Below, one piece after another: positions 40,018 to 48,012 of a stretch of 64,000 nucleotides of DNA. Below the pieces are notes generated by a model, which saw only the letters and a program-made list of their open reading frames with translations, did not search any database and was not told where the DNA came from. Position 1 is the first letter of the stretch, and every line of letters begins with the position of its first letter. The position numbers and the translations under genes were made by a program. Source of the stretch: Taiwanofungus camphoratus (taxonomy: Eukaryota > Basidiomycota > Agaricomycetes > Polyporales > Taiwanofungaceae). Location: the NCBI GenBank assembly GCA_003999685.1, contig CP021220.1, positions 1,488,001 through 1,552,000 of the forward strand, given 5' to 3'.

Positions 40018-41140
40018 TCAACAATTGCATGAATCTTTGCCTTGGGCTGCGTTCTCCTGAAGATTGACTCCACCTTCTTGCGCTCCACCAGCACGACCAC
40101 CAGTAGTACCAGGCCGGCCTGCGCCTCCACGGGTAGACGCCAAAATCTGCTCGATAGGGATCTTCTTGGCTAAGGCGGAAAGAGGAATCATTAGTTCACA
40201 AAGAGTCGAGGCAGATGGAGCAAACGAACCAATCTCAGTAAAGATCTCCACAACACCCTCTCCAGTTTTGGCACTCGTCTCGAAGAACAACAAACCAGCC
40301 TCCTGAGCGTATGCTTCAGCCTCCTCCCGTGGCACCTGCCTCAAACTCTCAGTTTCAGTCCCTGCATTCTCTCCAGGTGTTGCAGTTGCATCATCAGCCT
40401 CGTCTTCAGACTCTGGTGAAGCGGCACCTGATGACGAAGGTGATGGCTGGACAAGATCGACCTTATTCCCGGCAAGCGCGATGACGATGTTTGGGTTCGC
40501 CTGTCGCTGCAATTCCTTCACCCACGTCTTGGCCTTCTCGAGACTTGAGGCCTTAGTCACATCGTAAACGACTACTGCGGCTTGAGCATTCCGATAGTAC
40601 ATAGGCTATGACAATCATCAGAGGGAGTCTGACACAAGCAGCCAACCGAGCTTACCGCGAGAGAGTGGAAGCGTTCCTGGCCAGCAGTGTCCCAGATCTC
40701 GTATCGCAGGACACGATCCTCAAGTCGGCACTTCTGGGTTAGGAACGCCGCACCAATTGTGGGCTCCTTGTTGGCTTGGAATTCATTGGAGACCTGCAAA
40801 CGAGGTGAGAAGTGCGCATTGCTTAGCAATACAGATACATACGAATCGTAATACTATAGATGACTTCCCGACAGCAGCCTCGCCTAAGCCAGAGAAGAAT
40901 ACGTTAGTATAACGCCACGAAATGATGCGGGATCTGGTAAAATGAACGCTGGAAGCTTCTTGCAATCGCAATAGCTGACGTGCCCAGGCTCCTCGCTCAC
41001 AGGTCTGACATGGAATCGCACGGAGCGCACCGGATGGCCTTTACAGGAGAACTCGGAGAAATTCAGACGATAACCTCACCTAGCAAAACCAGCTTAACCT
41101 GCACAGACCGCTCTGCTGAGCCGGAAGCACCGTCGGCCAT
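40018..41140 (-). CDS. VPS21: RAB5-family small GTPase (VPS21/Ypt51 type)
   Basis: RAB5 controls early-endosome fusion. The start [21 protein letters not shown] (ATG at 41140) joins [14 protein letters not shown], the P-loop. The next exon is [20 protein letters not shown] with the switch-I threonine. [20 protein letters not shown] follows (G3 and switch II), then [28 protein letters not shown] (G4) and [10 protein letters not shown] (G5). Between G4 and G5 there is an acidic, Ser/Pro-rich insertion of about 36 residues, [20 protein letters not shown] and on, that canonical RAB5 lacks. The C-terminus DSCNC is a geranylgeranylation signal (CxC). Five exons fit. The promoter side carries one arm of the inverted repeat shared with RPB8. 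Confidence 0.92.
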
Positions 41141-41284
41141 GTCTATGGAATGTCGTGGAGAGAGAATACAATGCACTGAGCGGAGGGGTGATGGCGTAAC
41201 GAGGAACTGCTCAGCGGTGTCACGCGTGTAGCTTGTTTATCGCCTGTTTGCTGCGCTGCCGAATATGTCGACGCGGCACCTCTC

Positions 41285-41569
41285 ACAATATTGCTATTGC
41301 TAGTTTCACCAAACAAGGCGCGGTGGCAAACTGGCGCAAATCGACGCGCGGTGGCTGCATTTTTCGCCATCCTGACTGTCCGACTCAGAACAACTCTAGC
41401 TCGCTCAGTTTTGCTTGGATCGACTCGTTCTGTGAAGCAAAATGCTCTGTTCGTCTGTGTGGAGGGCACTGCATAATTTTCTCCGAGTTTCACCAATCCA
41501 ATCTTGACCTGCAAATTTGGTGGCTTTCTGAACGAAGAACAGCTTGTGCTCGACAACGACGGCTTTGGG
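41285..41569 (-). repeat. Inverted repeat, RAB5-side arm
   Basis: The 271 bases at 41299-41569 match the reverse complement of 42370-42632. There are about nine substitutions and one 8-base insertion here (caaactgg, near 41327). The inner 150 or so bases, nearest the spacer, look identical; the differences lie in the outer half. Read in the RAB5 direction, the arm ends about 150 bases before the ATG. A weaker match extends outward to the caatatt at 41285. Confidence 0.8.
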
Positions 41570-42369
41570 TGCTTACTTCTCTATGAACTCATTCTGTGCC
41601 TGTAGTTTAATGCTTATAGGTGCCTACTGCTGTGTATCGAGCACCGATTGGGGTTGTCCGGTGCAGAGGCCTGGAACAGTATGCTACAAAGCCTAAGACC
41701 ACATGAAGGTACACATGGTATGTGGTCCAAACCCCTCATTTTCACACTTAATTAGGCCCTCAGAAGATATCATCACACTTGGGTGACTGCATTATCGGTG
41801 TTTAATTTCTACCGGTAAGTACGTGTTCCCGTCTCACACATTGTCATTCCAAGATGCTTAAACATTGTATTTGTATTGTAGGGGTGATGCAATCATCATG
41901 GCATTGTGCATAGTACATTGGAGATGGTGGATAGGCTCCTTGAGGTGTTTTTCGCGCTTGCAAATAGTATTATACCCCTTTTATGTGATTTCTGATGCCA
42001 GGGCAATACAAAATGTATCACAACTTACAATACATTTAACTGGATGTGTCGAGAACAAAAGTATCATAAGAAAAGGCCTGCCTGACAAGTCACAGCTTTG
42101 AAGCTCTTCTATAACCCCCACCACTTTCTATCCCATATAACAACATAGCTTCTGGCTCCCAACTCACCGAAGAAAGCTTCCGACCCACGATAGGTCAGAT
42201 TTGTTCTTGAGCTGGATGGTTATAGTACATAGGGTATGTCAGACCGGAGGAGGGAGGAGGGGGTAATCATACCCTTGTGTAATATCAAAATGACTTGGAA
42301 TCTGCAATCAAAATTTGTACCAGACCCTCCACACATGTTCCAAGAAGAGTCCTACAGAAGCATGTAAGG

Positions 42370-42638
42370 CCCAAAGCCGTCGTTGTCGAGCACAAGCTGT
42401 TCTTCGTTCAGAAAGCCACCAAATTTGCAGGTCAAGATTGGATTGGTGAAACTCGGAGAAAATTATGCAGTGCCCTCCACACAGACGAACAGAGCATTTT
42501 GCTTCGTAGAACGAGTCGATCCAAGCAAAATTGAGCGAGCTAGAGCTGTTCTGAGTCGGATAGTCAGGATGGCGGAAAATGCAGCCACCGCGCGTCGATT
42601 TGCTCCACCGCGCCTTGTTTGATGCAACTAGCAATATT
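42370..42638 (+). repeat. Inverted repeat, RPB8-side arm
   Basis: This is the partner of 41285-41569 in the opposite orientation. Read toward RPB8, it ends about 25-30 bases before that gene's ATG, so it must include the core promoter or leader. An 80-codon frame (42383-42622) in this arm is open in the other arm too. Its amino-acid sequence starts SSTSCSSFRKPPNLQVKIG and differs at a few positions between arms. No known domain is seen. Confidence 0.8.
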
Positions 42639-42662
42639 TCTTATCCTCACGAGTCGGCAGTC

Positions 42663-43380
42663 ATGACCTCGAACACATCAAACATTGTCTTCGATGACAT
42701 CTTCACAATAAGTGCCATTGATAAGGAGGGCAAAAAATTCGATCGAGGTGCGTATTACCCGCCCCGCTCGCACAGCCAGGCTCACGACGTCCGCAATATT
42801 CCTCTTAACTGCCTGGAAATTTGCGTTTTATGATGCAGTGTCCCGTCTGTACGCTCATTCAAAAAACTACGATATGGACCTAACTTTAGACTACAACGTC
42901 GAGCTCTATCCGCTACAAAAGGACCAGTCTTTCGCATTGGCGCTTGCCTCTTCGCTCGCGCGGGGGCCACCAGGGGCTGCGGGAGGCGCGGCAGACGAAG
43001 ATGAGAAGGACAGGGATGTGTGGAGACCAGATGGGAAGGGCCGACGAGGTTTAGAGGAGGATTACGACTACGTAATGTACGGTAAGGTAAGTGCACCTTC
43101 ATTAACACGATGTCCCCGTGGATGTCCATCCCTCTGGCTGCTCCCGTACATCGCATGCTATTCCCACTCATGCGCAATCGAAGGTATACAGATTCGACGG
43201 AGGCACAGCGGAAATTGTGTATGTGGTTGTCTTCACACGTCAGTCAGCTTGCTAAAGGCTTCACTATGTAGGACGGCATATGCATCGTTTGGTGGGCTGC
43301 TGATGTCGCTCACAGGGTCATTCCGACATATGACAAGTATAGTACTCGGCGATCCCGTGTATATACTTCTGCGCAAGTGA
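42663..43380 (+). CDS. RPB8: RPB8, shared subunit of RNA polymerases I, II and III
   Basis: RPB8 is a small OB-fold subunit common to all three nuclear RNA polymerases. The first exon reads MTSNTSNIVFDDIFTISAID and KEGKKFDR; the intron splits the Val of RVSRLYAHSKNYDMDLTLDY. Then come VELYPLQKDQSFALALASSL, an Ala/Gly-rich loop, DRDVWRPDGKGRRGLEEDYD and YVMYGKVYRFDGGTAEIV. The last exon gives TAYASFGGLLMSLTGSFRHM and IVLGDPVYILLRK. Four exons, all with consistent phase, give about 150 residues, the usual size. It is convergent with the CON-6 gene. Confidence 0.95.
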
Positions 43381-43686: not shown

Positions 43687-44092
43687 TTAAGAACTCATGT
43701 CCTCAAGGACGGCCTGAGAGTGCTCCTTTGCCCCCTCAGAAATGTTCGGGTTGGTAAGCGCAGCCTGTTATTACCTTTCGGCATTGTTTTCTCTTGAGCA
43801 GCAAGAATCAGACACAAACCTTGTGACCGATTGCAACGTTTGCGTCGTGAGCCTCGGTGGAATCGAGCTCGCCGGTCTCTTGCATCTCCTGGAGACGCTC
43901 AGAGGCGCGTCCCTTTGCCTCCTCGGAGTTGTTGGGGTTAGATATAGCAGCCTCTGGCAATGAAGTGAGTAAATACACGAGGACGTGCACGATATACTAA
44001 CTCAAGCCACGAGCTACCTAATAAATGACGAGATGTCAGCAGGATAAATTATACGATGGAGCTGCGGCATTCACATTTCCTGGGTTGGCCAT
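43687..44092 (-). CDS. CON-6 type small stress/conidiation protein
   Basis: Four tiny exons assemble into a protein of about 80 residues. MANPGN joins VARGL, which joins KAAISNPNNSEEAKGRASER, LQEMQETGELDSTEAHDANV and AIGHK. The last exon is AALTNPNISEGAKEHSQAVL ending EDMSS. The two repeats of the form AA(I/L)xNPNxSEEAK are the CON-6 motif. The family was named for conidiation in Neurospora, but members are widespread small hydrophilic proteins linked to stress and dormancy. The first intron is about 56 bases, starting directly after PGN. Its place beside RPB8 seems incidental. Confidence 0.85.
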
Positions 44093-44734
44093 TGCGAATA
44101 TAAGTGTTGAAGCAGAGAAATCAATTGATGCCAGTTGTTTGTATTGCTCGTTGTCCCGAGCAGCTCGCCCTTTTAATGCATCCTCGGGCGCGCCTGTGGC
44201 TATATCTTGTGGCCACTCGTGCGTCACTTTCCTTTACATTTTTCCTCATCTCTGCTGATTTTAGCAGAAATATCGAGGAGTATGGGTGCGACTTTGCGCC
44301 GCTACTGATGTCAATACATCACGTGATCGCATCTGCACCGACGAACTCCGCATCCCCACTTCCTCCACGCGCGTTTACGCAACACTGCGGCGACCCAACT
44401 GGTTTATGCTGTATTTGTCGCTCTGGATGTGTGAAACGGTCTCCCCGATTCCTGACGTGTTTGCATTCTCGAAGGACGTCGACGTCGCACACTCTGACAA
44501 ATAGCTCTTATTTTTTTCCATTGGATGCACATGCCAAGACCAGTGACGAAGAATACAGAGAGTCCACATATATTAAAGATTACACTAACAAAGGAGTATC
44601 ATAACATAGCGGAAGAGCAATGGACATATAAGATTAAGGCGCATGTTGGTTTCCCCATCCGACTCGGTCGGAGGGTACTTATCCCGAGGACCACGAAAAG
44701 GTCTACGCCAGGACGGACACTCAATTCTTGAGCA

Positions 44735-44852
44735 TCCGCCCTCCCTCGAGGACTCACCTTGTATGGGACCTACCTGAGCTCCATGTTTTTTGGCGACTCA
44801 AGCCCTGAACGTCCGCCCTCCCTGAGCGACTTGCCTTGTGTGGGACCTACCT
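44735..44852. repeat. Imperfect tandem duplication, 77 bp period
   Basis: About 41 bases at 44735-44775 recur at 44812-44852 with six or seven differences. Both begin tccgccctccct and end tgggacctacct. Weaker similarity extends upstream of each. It lies just left of the T-poor tract. Confidence 0.55.
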
Positions 44853-45349
44853 TGCTCGTGAATTTCGTGGCGAATAACTTGGCGTTGAGCGCTTGACATT
44901 AGGGGAGCAGCCGAGTGCTCGACCCCGGCGTGATATGGAAAAGGAAGGCTGGAAAGAGACAGACAAATGAAGCGACGATGACAACACAAAAGATGAAAAT
45001 GAAGGTGAGAGCAGAAAACAAACAGCAGCGAGCAGACGAGCGCAGTAGAGCAACGAAGAGAAAGCACGGAAACACAGCAGCGCACGGACGACAGCAGGGA
45101 GAGAGCAGCACGAAAAATAGATCGACAGGCGATAAGACATGGGGAAGAGTCATATAGAGAAAGAATGTCATAGTGACAGTGCATAGACAGTCATAGAAAG
45201 GATGCATAGACAGGAACAGCCATAGAAATAGTAACCAGGGGCGATAGGGAAGAGACACAAGACAGCAATGACGTTGAACAAGACACAGAGCAGACACAGG
45301 ACAGGCCGAGCATGATGCACGAAAAGTCAGACCCAGAGCAGAACAGGAC

Positions 45350-45380
45350 ACAGACCAGACCAGACCAGACCAGACCAGCG
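45350..45380. repeat. Microsatellite (CAGAC)n
   Basis: About six tandem copies of cagac occur within the T-poor tract. The next line adds imperfect gcagagcagcaca repeats. This is low-complexity DNA with no sign of coding. Confidence 0.7.
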
Positions 45381-48012
45381 CGGACAGAAGAACAAAGTCA
45401 TCGGATAGCAGAGCAGCACATAGCAGAGCAGCACAGCACAGCAGACAGGACAGCACAACTGAGGACCAGAGAGCGCGGACAGACACACGGCTGGAACAGT
45501 TTTGAATGTATTTGACACTTAAAAGATCAGCGTAAGTAACAGAGCTCGAAGCTCACGGGAGAAGAGGCGAGCGCAGAATAGAGAACACAGAGAAACGACA
45601 TAGCTTGAGACCTCTTGAGATAAGCACAGCAGCTTGATAGGAGACGAATTGAGGCGGCACTGAAGCAGATGCACGAAGTGGGCATGATGACAAGCTGCAA
45701 CGTACCATCCATGGTTTTGAGGGCCCAGTGTTGAAGGGAAAGACGAGAGATCAAAAGGAAGGCAATAAATAGGAATAACTTATAGAGCAGTGAGCACAAA
45801 AGGGGCAGTGTCGGGGACTACTTGCTGGTGACGTTCTAGGAATAGCTGTTTTGCAGCGGTGCTGTATAAGGTCACCAAAGGTTTAATGAATGTTAGAGAA
45901 CAGTAATACTGCGACGCACCATTTATAGCAGAAGTGGTGGTGGAGAATAAATAGATATAAAGAGAGCAGAACAAGAGCGATAAGGGCAAGAAAGAGCAGA
46001 TTTCACAGCATTAGTCAAGAACAGGCAACACAGAAAGAGTTTGAGGCAGCACAAAGCGACGACAACAAGACCGAGAGCAGGAAGAAAGCACCTCTAGACC
46101 TATAAAGATAAGAATAAATATGAGATGCCAAACCAGAAACAAGTGTCCAGTCAGAATAGAAGAGCGGAAAAGACCCGAAGACCAGAATACGAAAGCAGCA
46201 ACAAGACGACAGGCCATAAAGAAAGGAATAAATATAAAAGGCCAAAGGCATACGGCCCCCCCAGGCGGGAGACGCACAGACATGTCAGACAGAGATGGGG
46301 CGTTGAGGGCCTTGAGTTGAAGCCTTGACGCTTGAAACCAACCAGACATGATCTTGAGGAGGAAAGCTGAAGACCCACAAGGCTCAATCAAGTCTGAGAC
46401 CCAAGAGCTCAGGCGAGGAGCAAAGGGAGTAAGCAGCTCGACGAGATGGGAGTGGGTAGTCGAGGGGGGGCGAAAAATAAACGCACCTCAAAGGGCCCTT
46501 TTAACTGTTGCATTGAGTGGCTGACGGCGACTGTGGCTGTTGGTAGTGCTTTAACTTGGCAGCCGCCACAAAGCGAGTGAGCGGAACTAGTGCCGATCAA
46601 TAATTGTAAATAACACGAGGTCTCGTGATCGCGGCGTGACAATCCCTCTGCAGGCTCCGAGTCAGCCTCGAGAACTCGGAAGGCGTTCTTTCTGCAACAG
46701 TAAGTACACACTGTACGAATCTGCAAATATCCCGTTTCTTTTCTGACAGTGTAGGAGTTGTCTACTCTCCTGCGAGAGACTGTGGCCTGTTTGTTGGTCT
46801 TTCAAGTTGGAAGTTCATTTCGCTTCTGTGCTTTGGCCGGCCCAATTTGGCCATTGTGCTTTGGCCAGAATCCCTTTTTGGTAGCCGCAACCATGTGCAT
46901 CAACGCGCATTGACCGAGCCCCATGCGTTGCTTTGGAGTTGTCAGGGTCATCACAGCAGGGTCGATACCTGTAGTTGCTCTGTATTGTGCCTACTGGTGG
47001 AGTCGCACCTCTGATTGGTCCAAAACTCGTCTTCTTTGATGGCTTTCGCAAATACCAAAACTCTTATTGGTTGAGACCCTAAGTGCCGACCGAGGGAGTT
47101 TGGTTGAACTAATCTGTGAGGCGGTATATGTTATACAGGTTTCTACTACTATGCCTACGTATGGCACCCTGACTCAGTCGGCAATTGCTTCTTTTCACCA
47201 TATTAATTAACCACAATACATTAACAATCTTTTCTAAACCAGTGGCACTACTCCCTTTGAGGTCAAAAATATTGAAAATCTCACCCTGAAGTTGAGTTTT
47301 CCCCCCCCTCTGAAATTGCCTTTGGATCCGAATCCTATTAGCTCCACGGGCGCTTAGATTTGCGAAAACTCTAAAATGAACTGTGCCGAGTTGTGCCGGT
47401 GTCCCGCACCGACTGTCGATCCTCATGACGTCATCCGTTACCGCGGTGAAATGCCGCCTTTGGTACTTACCTGTGTTTGATTGAACTGAACTGGTCGCCA
47501 TGACGGTCCATGGGCCATGATGGTGAACCAGCCGTCTCAGTACAGTACTCGACGAATCGATCAAGCCTTGTATCAGCGTTCCATTCTCGCTCCTAAGGAC
47601 CTCGGACGCCCTGAGGATGTACGAAACCACGCACAACACTGTAAATGCTAATGAAAAGTGCCCGAGGTGTAAGACCTCCCAATCTTTGCATTTCTATTTA
47701 TTTGCGTCGACAAAATCATCAGCAGTGACAAAAGACAAGTGCAAAAAAAGGTGAAAGAGCGGCGGCTAGCGCAACGTTCAAATACTATGCAACTACTAAT
47801 AAGAATAATAGATGAGCAAGTACCACACGACAAAGATAAATAGATGCATTCGAGCTCAATATAGAAACGCCGCATGGACTTGCGCGCGCGCGCGATCAGA
47901 CAAATATTTGGGATATGTAGAAAGAAAGAACTTTTTGCACTGAATGGTGAAGTGGAACGAACCAACAAGTCCCGCACATATATCCCAAGAGCCGACAGAA
48001 CAGACACCAAAG

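Follow-up and report, generated by a model that had tools for sequence, protein, structure and literature searches.

Foldback and other non-autonomous DNA transposons with long terminal inverted repeats carry long inverted arms around a non-coding core and are found near gene starts. The unit that lies between the RAB5 and RPB8 genes studied here is like them in all of these features, but it has no convincing target-site duplication of at least 4 bases, its ends are not specially conserved, and it is present as a single copy in the window, i.e. in the whole 64 kb stretch of DNA that was analysed.

In Drosophila subobscura, 59-bp inverted duplicates are reported at a microinversion of 2,026 bp, together with duplicates of 534 and 540 bp that are assigned to a larger inversion and are now in direct orientation; the authors name repair as another way in which the duplicates may have arisen (PMC7584159). 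The RAB5-RPB8 locus is like these staggered-break inversions in having a mirror-image duplicate at both ends of a segment, the limits of which breaks would set, and neither arrangement needs a target-site duplication. However, the uninverted state is known in Drosophila, whereas the present arrangement is read from one sequence, in which an 800-base segment separates the duplicates between two gene starts.

A third comparison is provided by the Alu quasi-palindromes studied for fragility in yeast, which have arms of ~300 bases with 94-100% identity and a 12-base spacer, and for which hairpins and template switching have been proposed (PMC3855049). The RAB5-RPB8 arms are similar to these in length and identity. 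Unlike the Alu constructs, which were studied for breakage with their 12-base spacer, the present arms are separated by 800 bases, and cruciform extrusion is less likely to occur because of a spacer of this size. No title or abstract start in the topical literature searched describes such a layout, a statement that is confined to that literature, and no paper containing RPB8, RAB5 and intergenic as whole words was found in the literature library searched.

The divergent genes and the limits of the inverted duplicate

The RAB5-type GTPase gene occupies positions 40018-41140 on the minus strand, with its start codon at 41138-41140, and the RPB8 gene occupies 42663-43380 on the plus strand, so that the two genes diverge and point away from each other. 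Both names are supported by protein matches. The best matches of the spliced RAB5 protein in the PDB are Ypt51 and Rab5 chains (E down to 6.9e-65), and the long exon of the gene, taken unspliced, gave a Pfam Ras match. In the spliced reading, RPB8 consists of four exons (42663-42747, 42839-43086, 43184-43218 and 43272-43380), separated by introns of 53 to 97 bases, and the predicted protein of 158 aa matches solved RPB8/RPABC3 chains (E down to 6.4e-28). The stop of RAB5 was taken from the long open reading frame at 40018-40602, inside which a last intron of 60 bases was read at 40170-40229; its GT...AG limits were checked, as were the junctions of the first four exons in the spliced reading. 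The RAB5 protein (40021-40602) further includes, as judged by eye, an acidic, serine-rich insert of ~35 residues after NKVDLV, and the top Rab5 chains match the protein in two stretches, the better one covering residues 14 to about 134.

Alignment and repeat search placed the left arm at 41295-41569 (minus strand, 275 nt), pointing to RAB5, and its inverted copy, the right arm, at 42370-42636 (plus strand, 267 nt), pointing to RPB8. The unstranded core between them (41570-42369) is 800 bases long and was characterised by its composition. In the inverted alignment, 259 of the 267 ungapped columns are identical and a further 8 bases are gapped. Measured from the outer ends at 41295 and 42636, the distance to the start codon is 154 bases for RAB5 and 26 bases for RPB8. 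The preliminary description had proposed that the two genes carry one upstream sequence as an inverted duplication, in arms of ~270 bases with near 96 percent identity that end ~150 and ~30 bases before the respective starts, and these aligned, bounded and inverted arms bear it out.

At their outer ends both arms read AATATTGC...CTAG, and the left arm has, as seen by eye, six additional bases in tandem (TTGCTA). If this tandem copy is allowed, the left arm possibly starts at 41287, and the true outer limits of the arms fall within 41287-41295 and 42636-42642. Beyond these limits, the nearest 60 bases on either side, including a shared TCGGCAG, are no more alike than expected (468 of 2000 shuffles were as good, which is not significant), and with the RPB8 coding start added, 1652 of 2000 shuffles were as good, giving no significant extension. 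A homology reaching into the gene leaders was rejected on these two results. At the inner ends, the local alignment and the blastn match continue for ~26 weakly similar bases (41570-41595 with 42343-42369; 91% overall), and this tail was left out of the arm counts because 208 of 2000 shuffles equal it. That figure applies to the first 50 bases inward; over 200 bases, 957 of 2000 shuffles were as good, and when the two core halves were compared with each other, 755 of 2000 were.

Self-comparison of the window confirmed the inverted repeat. Only two other inverted pairs of at least 30 nt were reported, measuring 31-33 nt at 71-73%, and nowhere else in the 64 kb was an inverted repeat as large as the arm pair found. 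A low-stringency search with 41140-42662 found no third copy of the arm or of the core in the window, other matches having E values of 0.79 or worse. An exact 25-base arm pattern had no match in the viral and prokaryote DNA collections, and no related locus was found when the proteins of the two genes were compared with viral and prokaryote DNA, a comparison able to detect close relatives only. Elsewhere in the window, at 44719-44852, there are two 57-base direct copies that are 79% alike and start 77 bases apart.

Uneven divergence and composition of the arms and core

The 8 substitutions between the arms, 7 transitions and 1 transversion, all lie in the outer half, and there are none in the inner 136 bases, which are identical in the left arm (41434-41569, minus strand) and the right arm (42370-42505, plus strand) as judged by the alignment and a recount of its columns. 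From the outside in, the recount gave 2 changes in 32 columns, an indel, 6 changes in 98 columns and 0 in 136 columns, with one isolated column also having 0. The preliminary description had put the identical inner stretch at 150 bases; the identity stands, but over 136 bases. If 7 to 9 events are scattered randomly across 275 positions, the P of an inner end that is change-free for at least 136 bases is 0.002-0.008, and that of a change-free run of at least 136 bases anywhere is 0.02-0.06, in a test that is post hoc and hinges on omitting the weak inner tail. The gradient from a perfect inside to a diverged outside is real, as had been noticed, though modestly supported, and it rests on 8 substitutions. 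It fits either a conversion that begins next to the core or a later, second round of copying, and proves neither; the hairpin-driven conversion first suggested for it would be compatible with it.

The core has a GC content of 0.43 and a CpG observed/expected ratio of 0.37 (14 CpG vs 37), which is lower than in any of the 1264 windows produced by an 800-base scan of the 64 kb in 50-base steps. Among 78 other non-overlapping blocks the ratio averages 0.96 and is never lower than 0.61; the core is 4.3 sd below this mean (Poisson P 1.9e-5), and the ten other blocks with a GC content <0.47 gave ratios of 0.61 to 1.17. This contrast was noticed first and tested afterwards. The ratios of the arms are 1.04 and 1.09, with 18 CpG in each, and that of the RAB5 leader is 1.20. 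The difference between arm and core is less sharp than these whole-arm figures because the inner arm block has a ratio of 0.77 (6 CpG) and the outer halves have 1.26 each. TpG and CpA are raised in the core, at 1.31 and 1.34 vs 1.13 and 1.10 for the window, and they are raised in the arms too, at 1.18-1.31, which is nearly the level of the core. On the left side, CpGs end at 41560 and restart at 41638; on the right, the last core CpG is at 42245 and the first right-arm CpG at 42378.

The CpG contrast adds to what had first been noticed in the unit of arms and core. The two parts of the unit seem to differ in their history: the arms resemble ordinary gene-flanking DNA, and the composition of the core suggests that it has long been cytosine-methylated, or derives from DNA that was, and that the arm pair has not. 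A RIP-like mutation of repeats is not favoured, as it is the repeated arms that keep their CpG overall and the unique core that is depleted. A second CpG-poor stretch (0.56-0.66) is located at 45101-46550, where it adjoins short tandem repeats at 45175-45457, and there is a strong AT skew of 0.246 at 44001-46000.

Stop-free frames, e.g. of 84 and 145 aa, exist in the arm and core region. All 29 of the 29 stop-free stretches of at least 35 aa were searched against Pfam up to E = 10, and the 5 matches obtained (E 0.11-0.71) are all under the curated cut-offs, with no transposase family among the stretches scanned. In the ungapped 234 bases that hold 6 of the 8 substitutions, the codons that differ between the arms are non-synonymous in 5 of 5 cases in one stop-free frame and in 4 of 5 in another. 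A coding exon in the arms was therefore rejected, given these differences and the fact that Pfam gave only sub-cut-off matches. The hexamer score of the arms is <0 in every frame (best -0.12) and that of the core is also <0, although this is a weak test, since the control exons reached only 0.00 (RAB5, which was not trained on) and 0.04 (RPB8). TpA is low in the arms, at 0.24 and 0.36, values that put them among the bottom 3% and 7% of windows, and no weight was placed on this. An intron-like GTAAGT ... TAG of 67 bases was seen by eye on the plus strand of the core at 41815-41881, and the core may hold a spliced transcript.

No Rfam family reached its gathering score in the 64 kb window, the three matches in the intergenic region being far below it (E 0.55-3), and ARAGORN, in its bacterial-code setting, found no tRNA. 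A structured RNA or a tRNA was rejected on these grounds. When the left arm and the core were folded as DNA, neither gave a better fold than its shuffles (z 0.75 and 0.78). The whole unit taken as single-stranded RNA is predicted to form a long hairpin, as expected, in a fold made without a shuffle control.

The CCAAT box is a promoter element, and plain CCAAT is common, with 123 occurrences in the window. Each arm has a single copy of the tandem CCAATCCAAT, and the rest of the window has none; in both arms it lies in the inner block, which on the right holds it as ATTGGATTGG, with CCAATCCAAT on the other strand. CCACCGCGC occurs twice per arm and once elsewhere in the window. ATG triplets read towards the gene number 3 in the left arm and 4 in the right, and transcription of a whole arm would make them upstream ATGs.

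Origin of the arms

The reading that we tentatively prefer, with a chance just short of even, is a local inverted duplication of the upstream sequence of one gene, which gave both genes the same upstream sequence. Under this reading, a mirror-image copy of ~275 bases from the immediate upstream region of one divergent gene would have been placed in that of the other, and the donor could have been the upstream sequence of either RAB5 or RPB8. The copying may have occurred by template switching at a stalled fork, or the arms may be the ends, filled in after a staggered break, of a mini-inversion that comprised the 800-base core. The gene-proximal halves would since have drifted apart, and the core-proximal 136 bases may have been homogenised by gene conversion between the arms, or may be a more recent copy.

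A local duplication is favoured because the arms are bounded and form the sole inverted repeat of their size in the window, with no third copy there, and because they keep a normal CpG content overall, like the RAB5 leader and unlike the core. It is favoured further because the arms give no coding signal, there is no convincing target-site duplication of at least 4 bases and the outer ends are not specially conserved, and the microinversion of Drosophila subobscura is a precedent for it. Counted against it are the CpG-poor core, which could be mobile-element DNA, and the TA on both sides of TTGCTA...CTAGCAA, which is compatible with a TA-target element. The gene-ward ATGs of the two arms, the blurred CpG contrast between arm and core and the small number of substitutions behind the gradient were also counted against this reading and the promoter reading that goes with it.

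The main competitor, plausible though the less probable of the two, is that a ~1.35 kb non-autonomous DNA transposon with long terminal inverted repeats (foldback- or MITE-like) landed between RAB5 and RPB8, and that its ends are now the promoters of both genes. Long arms around a non-coding core are the layout of such elements, and terminal inverted repeats of 275 and 267 nt are present. Methylated mobile DNA is often CpG-depleted, as is the core, but the arms do not share this depletion. A TA-target element is possible given the TA that flanks the ends named above. However, a scan of 35 by 37 end positions, which considered matches of at least 4 bases only, found just CTAG and CTCA at near-symmetric ends, i.e. 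no convincing target-site duplication of that length. The best longer match, 9 of 10 between the flanks CAATATTGCT and CAATATTTCT, lies at asymmetric ends and is confounded by the palindrome AATATT, as this is supplied by the inverted repeat itself. The working ends of a mobile element should be better conserved than the rest, but the outermost 32 columns, with 2 changes, are conserved no better than the next 98 columns of the outer half, with 6. Neither a transposase family in the 29 stop-free stretches, which would be expected of autonomous members only, nor a second copy in the 64 kb was found, and an old or degenerate element is compatible with the tests made. Removal of the unit would leave ~166-180 bases between the two ATGs. 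For this reason, and because of the results on target-site duplications and on the outer ends given above, a copied promoter fits slightly better, of the two origins first suggested, than a foldback element. Both survive, with the local duplication slightly ahead of the mobile-element origin.

The inner 136 bases of an old shared regulatory sequence might also have been kept identical by purifying selection acting on control sites, instead of by a recent copying or conversion event, and the tandem CCAATCCAAT in the inner block of both arms, found nowhere else in the window, would agree with this. Regulatory sites are usually short, however, and a run of 136 bases without a change, next to 130 aligned bases that have 8, exceeds what such sites readily explain, making this very unlikely. 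Equally improbable is an assembly artefact in which a chimeric read or a misplaced haplotype made a false inverted copy, since although inverted chimeras are known from amplified DNA, a simple one-molecule chimera would give identical copies, whereas the arms show 8 substitutions as well as indels, all in the outer half, and each adjoins a gene of its own, the spliced reading of which is open.

Shared upstream sequence of two unrelated genes

Under the preferred local duplication, as judged from the sequence, the arms are most likely the promoter or upstream control DNA of each gene. The preliminary description had assigned the same proximal control sequence to both genes. The common sequence is there; a common control role is suggested by the position of the arms, their non-coding content, their overall normal CpG and the tandem CCAATCCAAT.

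A further-reaching proposal is that RAB5 and RPB8 undergo concerted evolution, in which continuing gene conversion between mirror-image promoter copies flanking a methylated core, starting from the core side, would keep them under the same control sequence. In a side version, read-through transcripts would form a long dsRNA hairpin acting on both gene leaders. We regard this as improbable.

RAB5 is endosomal and RPB8 is an RNA polymerase subunit, i.e. the two are unrelated housekeeping genes. If the mirror-image sequence came from a foldback element, the locus would be a neat if ordinary example of mobile DNA that provides the promoters to either side of it. The RAB5-RPB8 unit is a neat new case of a known phenomenon. 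If the arms are working promoters, a single mutational event would have placed two functionally unrelated genes under a common control sequence, and the gradient from arm to arm could be used to measure gene conversion between promoters.
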